A DNA stretch of 7,661 nt from an uncultured Bacilli bacterium. Lineage in GTDB: Bacteria; Bacillota_I; Bacilli_A; RF39; UBA660. The position numbers and the translations under genes are program-made. The notes under the pieces were generated by a model. The model worked only from the letters and a program-made list of their open reading frames with translations. It was not told where the DNA came from and did not search any database. Of this stretch, positions 1-5,430 are shown one piece after another (the stretch's first letter is position 1; every line of letters begins with the position of its first letter). The stretch is from positions 1 through 7,661 of the forward strand of contig CANQHM010000052.1 in NCBI GenBank assembly GCA_947623845.1, given 5' to 3'.

Positions 1-11
1 CCCCCCGTCAA
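1..11 (-). promoter_or_regulatory. Truncated poly-G promoter of a gene left of the window
   Basis: On the minus strand the sequence GTCTTGAC is followed by at least six G before the window ends. This matches the -35 side of the promoter at 1928-1959, where TTGAC is followed by 11 G and then TATAAT. It therefore probably drives another array member whose coding region is outside the window. The G-run length, the -10 and the gene cannot be seen. Confidence 0.5.
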
Positions 12-19
12 GACAAAGT

Positions 20-48: not shown

Positions 49-75
49 AATTATTTATTTAAATGCACTTTTTTT
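49..75 (-). repeat. 27-bp conserved upstream box, copy A
   Basis: Identical over 27 bases to 2001-2027. On the minus strand it begins with seven A, continues GTGCATTTAAAT (which contains the palindrome ATTTAAAT) and ends AATAATT. It sits 37 bases upstream of the TTGAC element at 7-11, between the terminator of the preceding gene and the next poly-G promoter. An activator site or an UP-like A-tract element is possible; the function is unknown. Confidence 0.7.
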
Positions 76-141: not shown

Positions 142-1902
142 TTATTCATGTGATAAAACTGAACGAAACGTCTTGTCCTGATTCGCTGCTCCATTACCTC
201 CCAGATAGTTAAAGATTCCTGTTGTAGTAGGAAGATAATAATGTCCCCCGCGAAGGAACCAAACATATGATATTGTAGTGCTCAAATACGGGAAGACTGC
301 CTGTTCTGAATTCCATCCACCTAATGAACTACCAAACGTTATTAAGGTTTCTCTAGTGGCATCTCCTAGATGTCCTCTTCCATGTGTTATTTGACTATTA
401 CTAAATTCATACAAATCATAATACTTGGAATCTGGCATATTTTCTTCACTAAATTCACTACTTGCATAAAATATATCTGTTCCATCTTGTTTTTTTATAA
501 CACCCATCATATATTTCCATGCGCCACCGCTCATATCATATATGCCATACATATTACCAGTTGTACTTGCATTTATTCCATTTGTTGTATTCCATTTTTT
601 ATCATCGTCACATTTTGCTGGTGTACCTTCTTCAGTATTCCATTTTACCGGTTCATTTACAGAAGCCCCTACACATCCAGTATATGTTCCTCCATACCAC
701 CATCCCCCTTCAGTTCCTGTACCTTGAGCAGTGTTATTTTTCCATACTTCACAATTCTCTTTTGTCATTCCTGCTATATTACAAGTATTTTCATCTTTAT
801 ATATTCCATATATACTTTGCGTTAAATATACCACTGCTCCCCATTCCATATTCTTCATCATATGAGTGTCTACTTCAGTATGATTTAAATTATATTTATT
901 ACCTATTTTTTCGATATTTCTTTCAGCATCAAACATAGTTTTTATCGATTTATATACCATTGATGTTTTATCTGGTAGTATTGTTATATCTCCAATAACA
1001 TTAACAGTTCTACCATTTGGGTCAGTGGGATCACTCGGTTCAAATTTTCCTACCCATATGCCACGCAATTCTGTATCACCAAAGGTGAAGGCGGGATGTG
1101 TATACCAATTTCCATTCTCCGCATTTTTACAATCTTCTAATACTGTGCCATTTTTCATATCAGTATATGTACATGATACTTCTCCTGTGGTTTCGATGGT
1201 TTTTTCAAATTTGATATTTATTAATTGTTTTGGTTTACCTTCATTATTTACATTAAATAATTGATATTTATATCTTGGAATCCACACATACATTTGAAGG
1301 ATATCATCTGTGGTTATTTCTGTATTTACATTCAACTTTCCATCAGTATAAAACTTTTCCATTACAGATGGATTATCATGGTCGATTAATACCGCATTCG
1401 CCCATTCATTATTGTTATAATCATACCATTTTTGTTTATAATCAGCGATATATATTTTATTATTATCATATCTTATTGGTATTAAACCTTGAAACAAATC
1501 TGGATAATTCGCTCCACTTTCATCCATATATGGCTTAGTAATAAATTTAACTGTACATTTATTAGTAGTACCTGTCGTCAAAGTTAGTTTCCATGTTTCA
1601 CTGTTAAAACTTGCTTCAATTCCTGTTTTATCACATTGTATATTGTCAAAAACATAACCATCATCTTTACCAGGAAACTCACTTTTAGTTTCTCCATCTA
1701 CTAATACCGATAAAATAATATCTCGCTTTTTAAATTCAGCTACTGTATTAAATACCAATTTTTGAGTGTGGCGTACTTGGTATAAGGCAAAAGAATAACC
1801 TAGTACACCAACAACCAATAATGCACATATACTTATTATGATTTTCTTTTTATTACCATTTTTTATTTTACTTAATTCTTTTTCCGGATTAAATCTTCTC
1901 AT
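142..1902 (-). CDS. Membrane-anchored surface protein with FGE/C-lectin-like C-terminal domain (array copy 1)
   Basis: The 586-residue product has a basic N-terminus (residues 1-20), one hydrophobic segment (about 21-42) that looks like an uncleaved signal anchor, and an extracellular part. A small beta-rich-looking module (about 45-122) carries Cys90 and Cys116; further cysteines (244/258, 374/384, 410, 431) could form disulfides. From about 260 the protein resembles the FGE-sulfatase/C-type-lectin fold: GIWVGKFE near 282-289, EWGAVVYL near 353-360, GIYDMSGGAW at 453-462 (compare the family's LYDMxGNVWEW), RGG at 551-553 and a terminal FRSVL. The catalytic Cys pair that follows RGGS in true FGE is absent, so a binding rather than enzymatic role is inferred. 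There is no LPXTG sorting signal. ATG 1902 is preceded by AAGTAAGG nine bases upstream. It is a tandem paralogue of 2194-3966, of the same length range. The ligand is unknown. Confidence 0.85.
   Translation of the reverse strand: MRRFNPEKELSKIKNGNKKKIIISICALLVVGVLGYSFALYQVRHTQKLVFNTVAEFKKRDIILSVLVDGETKSEFPGKDDGYVFDNIQCDKTGIEASFNSETWKLTLTTGTTNKCTVKFITKPYMDESGANYPDLFQGLIPIRYDNNKIYIADYKQKWYDYNNNEWANAVLIDHDNPSVMEKFYTDGKLNVNTEITTDDILQMYVWIPRYKYQLFNVNNEGKPKQLINIKFEKTIETTGEVSCTYTDMKNGTVLEDCKNAENGNWYTHPAFTFGDTELRGIWVGKFEPSDPTDPNGRTVNVIGDITILPDKTSMVYKSIKTMFDAERNIEKIGNKYNLNHTEVDTHMMKNMEWGAVVYLTQSIYGIYKDENTCNIAGMTKENCEVWKNNTAQGTGTEGGWWYGGTYTGCVGASVNEPVKWNTEEGTPAKCDDDKKWNTTNGINASTTGNMYGIYDMSGGAWKYMMGVIKKQDGTDIFYASSEFSEENMPDSKYYDLYEFSNSQITHGRGHLGDATRETLITFGSSLGGWNSEQAVFPYLSTTISYVWFLRGGHYYLPTTTGIFNYLGGNGAANQDKTFRSVLSHE
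145..363 (-). other. Hypervariable C-terminal tip of array copy 1
   Basis: The last 73 codons (residues 514-586) align without a gap to the last 73 of the neighbouring paralogue, but only 32 residues are identical by my count. Conserved positions are structural (DATRET, GGW, FP, WF, RGG, GIF, K.FR.VL); the rest change freely, including most of the eight residues after RGG. This is the pattern of a C-lectin binding face. Several variable codons here end in T (CAT TAT TAT CTT CCT ACT), as would be expected if they derived from AAT by adenine mutagenesis. GC is 75/180 at positions 181-360, against 15/60 and 13/60 in sampled upstream lines. Confidence 0.6.
1202..1311 (-). repeat. 110-bp tract identical to 3266-3375
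   Basis: Every base matches the corresponding stretch of the other surface gene, offset 2064, including third codon positions. The ends of both genes are far more diverged. It codes for the core around MYVWIPRYKY and the following NVNNEGKPKQ. A recent gene-conversion tract is the simplest reading. Confidence 0.85.
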
Positions 1903-1911
1903 CTATGATTA

Positions 1912-1919
1912 CCTTACTT
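1912..1919 (-). promoter_or_regulatory. Ribosome binding site of array copy 1
   Basis: AAGTAAGG on the minus strand ends nine bases before ATG 1902. It supports this start, which also gives the same N-terminus as the paralogue (MR[RK]FNPE). Confidence 0.6.
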
Positions 1920-1927
1920 TCATAATA

Positions 1928-1959
1928 ATCATAGCAAATTATACCCCCCCCCCCGTCAA
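1928..1959 (-). promoter_or_regulatory. Poly-G spacer promoter of array copy 1 (likely phase-variable)
   Basis: On the minus strand TTGAC (1959-1955) is followed by 11 consecutive G (1954-1944) and at once by TATAAT (1943-1938). An extended -10, TGcTATGAT (1936-1928), follows. Taking TTGACG as the -35, the spacer is 10 bases to TATAAT and 20 bases to TATGAT, both away from the optimal 17. Losing three G would give 17 to TATGAT; gaining seven would give 17 to TATAAT. Slippage in the tract should therefore change promoter strength. The arrangement is known from phase-variable Neisseria promoters such as porA and opc; its operation here is inferred. Confidence 0.7.
1944..1954. repeat. C11/G11 homopolymer tract
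   Basis: Eleven consecutive C on the plus strand in a very AT-rich surrounding. Tracts of this length are prone to slipped-strand mispairing. It lies exactly between the -35 and -10 of the surface-protein promoter. Confidence 0.95.
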
Positions 1960-2000: not shown

Positions 2001-2027
2001 AATTATTTATTTAAATGCACTTTTTTT
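2001..2027 (-). repeat. 27-bp conserved upstream box, copy B
   Basis: Identical to 49-75. It lies 41 bases beyond the TTGAC of the copy-1 promoter and past the terminator of copy 2, so by position it belongs to the control region of copy 1. No such box precedes the right-hand gene (2194-3966), whose promoter is of a different type. Confidence 0.7.
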
Positions 2028-2193: not shown

Positions 2194-3966
2194 TTATTGA
2201 GCGGTTAGAACGGCACGAAATGATTTGTACCAATGCTCTTCACCTGGTGCCCAATAGAAAGAGAAAATTCCTGAATAAATCGTGCCAGAATGATTTCCAC
2301 CCCGTTCGAACCAAGAGCAGTTGTTTGTAACAATACCAACAGGAAAAGTTGATTGATCTTGATTCCATCCGCCATTACGGTCTCCAAATGTTTGTAACGT
2401 TTCTCTTGTAGCATCTCCTAAATGACCGCGTTCATGTGTATAACCATCAGCACTAAATGAATATAGATCATAGTATTTAGTTTCTGGCAATGTATCTAAT
2501 AGGAACTTACTAGACGCTACATTTACACTGCCATCGTTCTGATCAACGGTAACACCCATTACATATTCAGTAGCACCCCCTGCAATATCATATATGCCGT
2601 AAATATTACCAGTTGTACTGGCTTTTACTCCATTTGTGGTATTCCACACTTTATCTGCATCACATTTTGCAGGAGAACCATCATCATCAGTATTCCATTT
2701 TACTGCTGCACCAATGCTTTCTCCTACACATCCAGTATATGTACCACCATGTCTATTTTTAAGATTTGCCTCTCCGCCGGCTCCTTGGGCTGTATTATTA
2801 ATCCATACTTCGCAATCATCTTTTGTCATTCCTGCTATATTACAAGTATTTTCATCCTTGTATATACCATAAATACTTTGAGTTAAATATGCAATAGCTC
2901 CCCACTCTATATTTTTAAGTATATGAGTATCTATTTCATTAGCATTTAAATTATATTTATCAGCTTTTTGTAATTCTATATTTCTTGTTGCATTGAATGC
3001 CGTCGATATGCTTTTTTCGACTACACTCGTTTTATTAGGTAGTATTGTTATTTCTTCTATTCTACTATTCTTTCTTCCATTAGCAACATTTGGATCACTT
3101 GTTTCAAATTTTCCTACCCATATTCCTTTTAATTCTGTATCGCCAAAAGTAAATGCGGGATGTGTATACCAGTTGCCATTCTTCGCATTTTTACAATCTT
3201 CTAATATAGTACCATTTTTCATATTTGTATATGTGCAAGATACTTCTCCTGTAGTTTCAATAGTATTTTCAAATTTGATATTTATTAATTGTTTTGGTTT
3301 ACCTTCATTATTTACATTAAATAATTGATATTTATATCTTGGAATCCACACATACATTTGAAGGATATCATCTGTTGTTATTTCTGTATTTACATTTAAC
3401 TTACCATCAGTATAAAACTTTTTCATTACCTCTGGATTAGTATGATCTATTAGTACTGCATTCGCCCATTCATTATTGTTATAATCATACCATTTTTCTT
3501 TATAATCTGCTATATATATTTTATTGTTATCATATCTTATTGGAATTAAACCCTGAAATAAATCTGGATAGTTTGCTCCACTTTCATCCATATATGGCTT
3601 AGTAATAAATTTAACTGTACATTTATTAGTAGTTTTTGTAGTTAAAGTTAATTCCCAAGTATCATTATTAAAACTAGCTTTTATCCCTGGTTTATCACAT
3701 TGTATATTATCAAAGACATAACCATCACCTTGATTGGGAAAATCATTTTGCGTTTTACCATCTACCATAACGGATAAAATAATATCACGTTTTTTAAATT
3801 CTTCGACTGTATTAAATGCTAAGTTTTGAGTATGACGTACTTGGTACAATGCAAAGGAATAACCTAGTATACCTACTACAAGTAAGGCACATATAATAAG
3901 AATTACTTTCTTTTTATTATCCTTTCTTATTTTATTTAGTTCTTGTTCGGGATTAAATTTTCTCAT
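2194..3966 (-). CDS. Membrane-anchored surface protein with FGE/C-lectin-like C-terminal domain (array copy 2)
   Basis: The 590-residue paralogue of 142-1902 has the same plan: basic N-terminus, hydrophobic anchor at about 21-42, a two-cysteine module (Cys90, Cys116), then an FGE/C-lectin-like half with GIWVGKFE near 282, EWGAIAYL at 354-361, GIYDIAGG at 457-464, an RGG near 555-557 and terminal FRAVL. The catalytic cysteines of FGE after RGG are absent. By my count residues 1-122 are about 78% identical to copy 1, residues 123-292 about 94% (160/170), and the last 73 about 44%. ATG 3966 follows AAGGTAGGT by six bases. It is the first gene of the array, behind a terminator and a normally spaced promoter, so it is probably transcribed on its own. 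A ligand-binding surface role is inferred; the substrate is unknown. Confidence 0.85.
   Translation of the reverse strand: MRKFNPEQELNKIRKDNKKKVILIICALLVVGILGYSFALYQVRHTQNLAFNTVEEFKKRDIILSVMVDGKTQNDFPNQGDGYVFDNIQCDKPGIKASFNNDTWELTLTTKTTNKCTVKFITKPYMDESGANYPDLFQGLIPIRYDNNKIYIADYKEKWYDYNNNEWANAVLIDHTNPEVMKKFYTDGKLNVNTEITTDDILQMYVWIPRYKYQLFNVNNEGKPKQLINIKFENTIETTGEVSCTYTNMKNGTILEDCKNAKNGNWYTHPAFTFGDTELKGIWVGKFETSDPNVANGRKNSRIEEITILPNKTSVVEKSISTAFNATRNIELQKADKYNLNANEIDTHILKNIEWGAIAYLTQSIYGIYKDENTCNIAGMTKDDCEVWINNTAQGAGGEANLKNRHGGTYTGCVGESIGAAVKWNTDDDGSPAKCDADKVWNTTNGVKASTTGNIYGIYDIAGGATEYVMGVTVDQNDGSVNVASSKFLLDTLPETKYYDLYSFSADGYTHERGHLGDATRETLQTFGDRNGGWNQDQSTFPVGIVTNNCSWFERGGNHSGTIYSGIFSFYWAPGEEHWYKSFRAVLTAQ
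2197..2415 (-). other. Hypervariable C-terminal tip of array copy 2
   Basis: Residues 518-590 align ungapped with the tip of copy 1 at 32 of 73 positions. GC is 74/180 at positions 2221-2400, clearly above the body of the gene. Synonymous third positions also differ between the copies in conserved codons (GGG/GGT, ATC/ATT, TTT/TTC), so the two tips are not simply adenine-mutated copies of one shared template. Confidence 0.6.
3266..3375 (-). repeat. 110-bp tract identical to 1202-1311
   Basis: Partner of the identical tract in array copy 1. As a long direct repeat in tandem genes it is also a substrate for unequal recombination, which would fuse the N-terminus of one copy to the variable tip of the other. 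Confidence 0.85.
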
Positions 3967-4045: not shown

Positions 4046-4075
4046 ATTATATACGTAAAACGTATATAAAGTCAA
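4046..4075 (-). promoter_or_regulatory. SigA-type promoter of array copy 2
   Basis: On the minus strand TTGACT (4075-4070) and TATAAT (4051-4046) are separated by 18 bases, close to consensus for the housekeeping sigma factor. Transcription would start near 4039 and leave a leader of about 70 bases before ATG 3966. Unlike the promoter of copy 1 it has no homopolymer spacer. Confidence 0.7.
4047..4069. promoter_or_regulatory. Perfect inverted repeat filling the copy-2 promoter spacer (putative operator)
   Basis: The arms TTATATACGT (4047-4056) and ACGTATATAA (4060-4069) are perfect reverse complements around AAA. They cover the spacer and overlap the -10, the usual place for a dimeric repressor to block polymerase. 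The regulator is unknown and none is encoded in the window. Confidence 0.55.
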
Positions 4076-4094: not shown

Positions 4095-4130
4095 TTTAAA
4101 AAATTTAAAAAGACCTAGTCTTTAGGTCTT
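4095..4130 (-). terminator. Terminator of the spoVA operon, overlapping the spoVAE stop
   Basis: On the minus strand AAGACCTA (4130-4123) and TAGGTCTT (4117-4110) form a perfect 8-bp stem with a 5-base loop, followed by a T-rich tail (TTTAAATTTTTT, 4109-4098). The TAG stop codon of spoVAE (4117-4115) is within the stem. It separates the sporulation operon from the surface-protein array. Confidence 0.8.
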
Positions 4131-4465
4131 GTAAATAATGTAAAGAAAGCAGCAAAGATGATAGCAGCGGTAATACCTCCGGAAGTGGTAGTAAGCATAT
4201 TGGTAAACATACCTAGAATTCCTTTACTTTTAAACCCCTCATAACAAGCTTGATATAATAAATTACCAAAAGAAGTTATGGGAACACTTGCTCCTACTCC
4301 TGCAAAAGAGATAAATTTTTCATATATACCGAAGAAACTTAATATAGCTCCTACAACTACTAAGATACTAGTAACATGACCGGGTGTTAATTTTGTATTA
4401 TCTAGAATTAACTCCCCAATTAAACAAACTAATCCAACAAATAAAAATGCTTTTAAATATAACAT
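4115..4465 (-). CDS. spoVAE: Stage V sporulation protein AE (SpoVAE)
   Basis: A 116-residue membrane protein with three to four hydrophobic segments (about 3-21, 33-47, possibly 56-72, 94-112) and the family core GVGASVPITSFGNLL around 57-70. Its length is that expected for SpoVAE. It belongs to the SpoVA inner-membrane complex of the forespore, which takes up dipicolinic acid (DPA) during sporulation and releases it at germination; SpoVAC and SpoVAD are its partners, encoded directly upstream. I chose ATG 4465, which overlaps the spoVAD stop as TGATG; a TTG two codon letters upstream at 4468 would add one residue. GGAGG at 4476-4480 (ten bases from ATG, seven from TTG) lies inside the end of spoVAD, indicating coupled translation. 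It is the last gene of the operon, with a terminator over its stop. Confidence 0.9.
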   Translation of the reverse strand: MLYLKAFLFVGLVCLIGELILDNTKLTPGHVTSILVVVGAILSFFGIYEKFISFAGVGASVPITSFGNLLYQACYEGFKSKGILGMFTNMLTTTSGGITAAIIFAAFFTLFTRPKD

Positions 4466-5430
4466 CAATTTATAACCTCCAAACTAACGGCATGGCATAT
4501 CGCCGGAATGGCTAATTTTTGATTAACTAAAGTAGGACAATGTAAAGCTCCCGTTGCTAGTAATAAGATATTTTTGTATTTTTTTTCTTTTAAGATTTTA
4601 CCAAATAATACTAATGGTAAAGTAGCAGGACCCGAACTTCCACTACCTAAATTTTGTTCTTTTTTATAAAGTATTTCCCCAGCATCAATATGTTTTTTAA
4701 TAAAAATATTAGAAGATTTTAATAGTTCTTTAAATAAATTAGATCCTACTGTACCTAGATCGCCCGTTAAAACTAAATCATAATCCGTAATACTTTTCTT
4801 TAACTCCGTTAAATGTCTTAGTAAAGTATCCGCGGCGGCGGGAGCCATAACAGCACCCATATTAAAGACATCAGTAACCCCATAATCTACTACTCTACCA
4901 AATGTAGCCGAAGTAATTTTAATATTCGTAGGTTCAGTACTTACTATCGTACTTACCGCCCCTGTCACCGTGATAGTTGCTCTTTTAGGTTTAGGAGCAC
5001 CATATTCTACAGGATAGCGAAATTGTTTCTCCGCATTTAGAGCATGACTACTAGTAATAGTAAGAATACTTTTAGCTAGTTTTTTATTAACCATATTAGC
5101 AGCTAAGATTAAAGACTCATTAAACGTAGCACAAGCCCCATAGATACCAATAAAAGGTATGGGATATTTTGAAGCACTATAAGAAGTAACTGCTATTTGG
5201 TTATTTAGATCTCCCCCAATAAGATAATCTACTTCTTTATTATATTTAGCTAAGATTTTATCAATAACAAATTGTTGCATTTTAATTTCACTTTGTTCAA
5301 AAGTTTTAGCTTTAAAGTAGTAATCTTCCATAACATAATCAATTTGTTTTAGATTACCCTCTTTTTCTAGTTTACTAGTTAGTGTAAAGTAATCTTGTAA
5401 ATAAATATTATTATAAGTATAACTAGACAT
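4465..5430 (-). CDS. spoVAD: Stage V sporulation protein AD (SpoVAD)
   Basis: A 321-residue protein of the thiolase-like fold, slightly shorter than the 338 residues of the Bacillus subtilis protein. Recognisable family segments are GGDLNNQ at 72-78, GIYGACATFNESL at 95-107, TSSHALNAEKQFRYP at 126-140 with EYGAPKP following, FGRVVDYGVTD near 178-188, GAVMAPAAADTLLRHL near 192-207, and ATGALHCPTL at 292-301. In Bacillus SpoVAD binds dipicolinic acid and sits on the forespore inner membrane with the other SpoVA proteins; no enzyme activity is known. It has no membrane segment. The start overlaps the end of spoVAC by eight bases, and GGTGATC at about 5435-5441 serves as its SD site. It ends in TGA overlapping the spoVAE start. 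Confidence 0.94.
   Translation of the reverse strand: MSSYTYNNIYLQDYFTLTSKLEKEGNLKQIDYVMEDYYFKAKTFEQSEIKMQQFVIDKILAKYNKEVDYLIGGDLNNQIAVTSYSASKYPIPFIGIYGACATFNESLILAANMVNKKLAKSILTITSSHALNAEKQFRYPVEYGAPKPKRATITVTGAVSTIVSTEPTNIKITSATFGRVVDYGVTDVFNMGAVMAPAAADTLLRHLTELKKSITDYDLVLTGDLGTVGSNLFKELLKSSNIFIKKHIDAGEILYKKEQNLGSGSSGPATLPLVLFGKILKEKKYKNILLLATGALHCPTLVNQKLAIPAICHAVSLEVIN

Follow-up and report, generated by a model that had tools for sequence, protein, structure and literature searches.

Poly-G tracts as candidate length-variable promoter spacers of surface-protein genes in uncultured gut Bacilli

Results

A poly-G tract in the promoter of a surface-protein gene

The stretch of DNA analyzed here, hereafter the window, comprises 7,661 nucleotides of an uncultured Bacilli bacterium (GenBank assembly GCA_947623845.1, contig CANQHM010000052.1) and contains on its minus strand the gene of a putative membrane-anchored surface protein of 586 amino acids (142..1902), whose promoter carries a run of eleven G residues. 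A paralogous surface-protein gene on the same strand (2194..3966) encodes 590 amino acids with 73% identity to the product of 142-1902, and is preceded by a promoter-like TTGACT-18-TATAAT without G tract (4046..4075, minus strand).

The minus strand at 1959..1928 reads TTGAC-G11-TATAATTTGCTATGAT, the complete promoter stretch being TTGACGGGGGGGGGGGTATAATTTGCTATGAT. A promoter with an 11-G spacer had been claimed at 1928..1959 by a preliminary inspection of the letters (the sequence-only reading), and this arrangement was confirmed. The -35 hexamer TTGACG occupies 1954..1959 of the minus strand, and its final G opens the tract (1944..1954, minus strand; C11 on the plus strand), which is the proposed length-variable spacer. 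Directly 3' of the tract is a TATAAT (1938..1943, minus strand), 10 nt from TTGACG, followed by the extended -10 TGCTATGAT (1928..1936, minus strand), 20 nt from TTGACG at G11; both distances are those given by the sequence-only reading. The start codon of the 142-1902 gene is located 25 nt past the TATGAT hexamer, with AAGG, a likely ribosome-binding site, in between (1912..1915, minus strand; read from AAGTAAGGTAATCATAGATG at 1900-1919).

The extended -10 gave the best -10 score in the window (6.8, vs 5.7 for TATAAT). TATGAT is favored over the nearer TATAAT because most promoter copies in G001, G184 and part of G358 keep a hexamer 10 nt after the tract, and a TATAAT at tract offset 0 is not retained in G001 or G184 (these genomes are described below). 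The extended -10 is thus the likely -10 of the window promoter, while the tract-adjacent TATAAT is judged not to serve as the -10. The spacing from TTGACG to TATGAT equals the G count plus 9, that is 20 at G11 and 17 at G8, and promoter spacing has its optimum near 17 nt, which a G tract may shift. The claim that small slips bring either -10 to 17 nt therefore stands for the extended -10 (at G8) and fails for TATAAT, which would require about G18.

The G+C content of the window is 29.6%. In windows simulated from its dinucleotide frequencies (300 per model) the longest G/C run averaged 5.6-5.9, with a maximum of 9 for the model trained without tracts and 11 for the model trained with them. Hence G11 is hardly expected by chance in the window and does stand out in AT-rich DNA as first noticed, and its placement between a -35 and a -10 is a coincidence additional to run length.

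Because CCCCCCGTCAAGACA at positions 1-15 is an exact copy of 1949-1963, the window opens inside a second G-tract promoter (1..15, minus strand), cut by the window edge at TTGAC-G6. Upstream of both tract promoters lies a shared AT-rich element with the core AAATAAATAATT, found as AAAAAAAGTGCATTTAAATAAATAATT at 2001..2027 and in a second copy at 49..75 (both minus strand). The AAATAAATAATT element also precedes 2 of 22 G001 tract promoters (L069 and L077) and was not found in 80 kb of G001 background on either strand. The minus strand further has a run of eight C (C8; G8 at 1971-1978 of the plus strand) 11 nt upstream of TTGAC.

Tract promoters in a related genome

A protein search accepted 7978 of 8000 scored candidates. 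When only the two window paralogs served as query, the locus search gave no relative; with 23 of the closest relatives as query it gave none in viral contigs and 32 loci in genome contigs, of which a single metagenome-assembled genome contributed 29. This genome is CANRME01 ('uncultured Bacilli bacterium isolate Lapin-030__bin6', hereafter G001), which we take to be from rabbit gut, reading 'Lapin' as rabbit. In front of many G001 paralogs stands TTGAC-G9..12-TGTAAAATGATAAGATATACACATAAGGTAGG or a sequence close to it, and others have promoters without a tract. A whole-genome scan of G001 revealed 22 TTGAC-G8+ sites and 0 of the reversed pattern. G001 has 23 copies of the promoter core found downstream of the tract, none with more than one mismatch in 21 nt, and all 23 follow a G tract (20 complete, 3 cut inside the tract at a contig edge); in viral contigs 0 copies were found. 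Some contigs of the window and G001 end inside or near tracts. As a sign of slippage these ends were rejected, since they are better explained by repetition of the promoter core in the genome.

In G001 tract promoters (e.g. L066 and L069) an inverted repeat, ATATACACAT...ATGTGTATAT, was seen by eye just after the -10; it flanks AAGGTAGG, likely a ribosome-binding site, and is a possible second control layer. Other long G runs in G001 have no TTGAC upstream (G13 at L081, G9 at L063 and L064, G10 at L073, G11 at L082). The L081 run sits, by eye, within a relative of the surface-protein genes, so some of these non-promoter runs may act by reading frame.

A reverse transcriptase gene lies at 2687-6004 of L246 (G001 contig 6) beside a gene ending like the variable region of a diversity-generating retroelement (DGR); the neighborhood is phage-like by eye, and a related stretch occurs in L082 beside the G11 run. 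The reverse transcriptase region matched only L082 among the loci given, and near it no template repeat matching the surface genes was detected. From this search of G001, DGR control of the surface genes was judged unlikely.

Tracts occupy the space between -35 and -10

Runs of at least nine G (G9+) were then considered in 8 genomes, which were picked for having such sites. They number 51 in G358, 46 in G072 and 37 in G081; from G081 and G072, 15/37 and 15/46 runs were fetched. Runs with identical upstream 15 nt were merged, leaving 46 of 50 in G358, 25 of 27 in G001 and 10 each in G081 and G072. TTGAC was present at most 12 nt 5' of 114 of the 129 distinct runs, where 0.76% would be expected, and in the opposite orientation at 1 of 129. 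In G358, 44 of 46 distinct runs have TTGAC just upstream.

The position of the tract within the spacer is variable, the arrangements including TTGAC|G, TTGACAC|G, TTGACAAGT|G, TTGACAAAACTGTT|G|TATGAT and TTGACAAAATCATA|G|TATAAT. With the best -10 chosen regardless of distance and ties resolved by picking one, the total spacing was 15-20 nt in 80 of 88 promoter families; shuffling the downstream DNA 300 times brought a mean of 38% and never more than 55% into this range. Where the gap on the -35 side of the tract was longer, the gap on its -10 side tended to be shorter (r = -0.66, 0/5000 permutations, 88 families), and this trade-off had r = -0.85 when the test was limited to the 76 families whose best -10 was unambiguous. 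Most relatives with the tract directly after TTGAC have a kept hexamer 8-10 nt past the tract; for G001, G184 and class A of G358 this offset is mostly 10 nt, L075, L083, L084 and L138 being among the exceptions. That the -35/-10 distance of a surface-protein promoter is set by a homopolymer thus finds strong support in other genomes, and what was presented as a single locus is not one.

Tract length differs between otherwise identical promoters

Among same-genome promoter pairs identical in the -35 prefix and in the 20 nt after the tract, tract length differed in 49 of 160, and it therefore seems to change faster than its flanks. Lengths span 9-12 in G001 and G184 and 9-11 in G466. Tract lengths in related genomes, which the sequence-only reading had proposed to count, thus differ between paralogous promoters of these three genomes and are nearly uniform in three others taken up in the Discussion. 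A loss of mismatch repair was rejected as the cause, judged on MutS, whose domain is present in 21 of 22 genomes tested.

Tracts may also be gained or lost at one site, because L083 (G001 contig 85) has a G10 promoter where the SpoVAC/SpoVAEB-like gene of the window (4115-4468) has an ordinary promoter. By eye, the sequence 5' of the L083 promoter resembles the end of that window gene.

Products of the downstream genes

A hydrophobic segment serving as a predicted N-terminal membrane anchor was found in 98 of 113 downstream open reading frames (ORFs) vs 47 of 185 background ORFs, with minimum lengths of at least 60 amino acids for the former (from many genomes) and at least 150 for the latter (from G001, G358 and G466), and with paralogs among the downstream ORFs that are not independent. 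For 34 of 147 promoters the fetched DNA held no usable ORF, and 3 viral sites were dropped. Judged by this anchor, the products of tract promoters would be surface proteins. They comprise several unrelated surface families, and Pfam gave a match for 9 of 25 chosen downstream ORFs and none for the other 16. In G001, G358, G466, G072 and G081 many surface genes are each served by a separate tract, while several G001 paralogs and one window paralog have promoters lacking one.

Some downstream genes were of other kinds. Signal-peptidase-like genes, below the Pfam cut-off, follow G-tract promoters at L107 and L149, where a switch could alter the export of several proteins together. At L164 (G466) a G9 tract preceded by TTGACAT stands before a sigma-70-like ORF and may switch a regulator.

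As for the window, its surface proteins have no cysteine at the N-terminal membrane anchor and so, by reading, are not lipoproteins. Pfam gave 0 matches for the two surface proteins and NCBIfam 0 for three window proteins; among 23 relatives, Pfam gave one weak FGE-sulfatase match (E 0.0035). A PDB sequence search gave 0 matches, and Foldseek against PDB no match at E <= 0.001. The C-terminal part of the 586-amino-acid protein appears to resemble DGR variable proteins of C-type-lectin fold, in a model with a mean pLDDT (predicted local distance difference test) of 64. Nearby genes (two SpoVAC/SpoVAEB-like, SpoVAD and one of the sigma-70 family) fit a spore-forming, Bacilli-type host.

Distribution across genomes

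Four scans were run at the family, order, class and phylum ranks assigned to G001. At family and order rank the pattern was TTGAC-G8 alone, and at class and phylum rank a broader one (a G9+ tract anywhere between TTGAC and TANNAT), so that counts from the two patterns are not interchangeable. TTGAC-G8 was found in 14/386 genomes of the family (77 matches, summed) and 19/385 of the order (88 matches), with the matches clustering in a few genomes. The broader pattern occurred in 34/395 genomes of the class, with 199 matches as a column sum in which alternative -10 ends count more than once, and in 22/387 of the phylum, a sample that overlaps the class sample; the reversed controls were 0/395 and 0/387. 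Taken together, the four scans handled 985 genomes, of which 52 matched at least one of the two patterns (tally). The C-tract version gave 1 match in 1 genome of the same 395 class genomes. The G-tract promoter is thus a recurrent device within genomes and across the class. Viral contigs yielded 3 broader-pattern matches, which were rejected as probable chance (best -10 spacings of 7, 9 and 16 nt) and left out of most counts. In G913, a genome of 0.8 Mb, three TTGAC-G tracts of G13 to G21 were seen on contigs 2 and 4 (L291).

Discussion

We regard spacer-length phase variation by slipped-strand mispairing as the best explanation of these promoters, and as a probable one. The G tract would be the length-variable spacer of a sigma-A-type promoter, to which replication slippage would add or remove Gs within a population. 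A changed G count would shift the distance from the -35 to the extended -10, and this distance would set the transcription of the predicted membrane-anchored, lectin-fold-like surface protein. The ON lengths would be those that bring the spacing close to the ~17-nt optimum. Since many surface genes in relatives each carry their own tract, cells with different surface-protein combinations would result, with a presumable benefit in immune, phage or binding diversity.

Several observations weigh against this explanation. Five genomes scanned without a -10 requirement showed a weak gap trade-off (r = -0.23, p = 0.079, 38 families), with 34 of the 38 families still at 15-20 nt. In G001 and G358 the spacing set by most tracts is 19 nt, not 17. 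Nor are tracts longer where the remainder of the spacer is shorter (r = 0.07). The reversed controls of the TTGAC-G8 scans were not clean (5/386 genomes with 7 matches in the family, 11/385 with 25 matches in the order). Moreover, lengths are nearly uniform in G358 (38/44 G10), G081 (9/10 G9) and G072 (7/7 G10), and spacing alone does not account for the strand rule, by which the tract is G and hardly ever C; this rule, which places the G run on the predicted non-template strand, is strong and without explanation.

The last two points are those expected of a fixed G-rich element, that is a constant regulator site or a DNA-structure signal (G-quadruplex or A-form) through which surface genes would be co-regulated while slippage is slight or absent: the 395 class genomes include 34 with G and 1 with C, and a fixed element would equally give a modal length per genome. 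Yet the tract adjoins the -35, lies in mid-spacer or adjoins the -10 depending on the promoter, the total spacing is mostly retained at 15-20 nt, and lengths do vary in G001, G184 and G466. We therefore consider a fixed element unlikely.

Much less likely still is recombination, in which promoter copies or the C8/G11 arms would serve cassette exchange or form a hairpin, with tract length as a by-product. The C8 run upstream in the window and the 23 near-identical core copies in G001 would suit it, but the C8/G11 hairpin folds no better than shuffles (z = -1.34, 22/200 shuffles fold as well), no such C run occurs in the upstream stretches inspected in G001 and G358, and the copies in other genomes stand in unrelated contexts. 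A false poly-G from sequencing or assembly, as the contig ends in or near tracts might hint, is hardly credible, as most tracts are contig-internal, have conserved promoter elements on both sides and recur, only ever on one strand, across numerous separate genomes, and the repeated core better accounts for the ends.

Under slippage in the promoter spacer, a per-genome modal length unrelated to the rest of the spacer would fit a mutational equilibrium seen through consensus assembly. We lean, with somewhat less assurance than for slippage itself, towards the wider reading that uncultured gut Bacilli repeatedly evolved genome-wide sets of up to ~50 independent poly-G switches under a strict non-template G rule, jointly with a combinatorial surface generated by slippage, a G9-G10 mutational equilibrium and a flanking spacer tuned such that 1-2 slips cross the working range of the promoter.

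If this is true, a large uncultured gut group has sizeable sets of spacer-type switches, with up to ~50 candidate sites per genome, and the surface states of strains would be traceable in hosts over time by counting Gs in existing metagenomes. Through the strand rule and the retained total spacing it becomes testable why homopolymer switches favor one strand, and how promoters evolve to lie one or two slips from activity. The sequence-only reading knew of no well-described case in such Firmicutes, and likewise the literature searched gave no description of poly-G promoter switches in this bacterial group; in the main text of a 2025 review, to which the count is confined, spacer, spacing and Firmicutes have 0 occurrences each (PMC11868660).

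With regard to known systems, the promoters appear to work like those of porA and vlp, in that the tract lies between -35 and -10 and the product is a predicted surface protein. The Neisseria opc and fetA promoters use C tracts, whereas C tracts are almost absent here. In Neisseria meningitidis porA, the transcript level tracks the number of Gs in the -35/-10 spacer (PMC3899988). The logic proposed from the outset was that of porA, and it was borne out in the arrangement, a G run that separates the -35 from the -10 ahead of a predicted surface-protein gene; unlike porA, there are many such promoters per genome, in Bacilli, and the tract position in the spacer is variable. In Mycoplasma hyorhinis, every vlp promoter has a poly-A tract, with combinatorial ON/OFF states (PMC10502178). 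The likeness is a surface-protein family with a homopolymer in the promoters of its members, here of many but not all of them. The tract here is G, not poly-A, the window proteins have an N-terminal membrane anchor and by reading are not lipoproteins, and the copies are more numerous (up to 51 G9+ runs per genome) and belong to several unrelated surface families. With DGR variable proteins (TaqVP, Mtd) the likeness would be one of fold only, from the same model (mean pLDDT 64). The pilus genes of Bifidobacterium breve have G10-G12 tracts whose length mixtures were measured in culture and in mice; the tract studied there lies inside the coding sequence and acts by frame, and further promoter-spacer tracts are mentioned in that paper (PMC9187656). 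B. breve is likewise a gut commensal with G tracts linked to surface structures, the difference being that its studied tract is coding whereas the tract described here lies in the promoter spacer.
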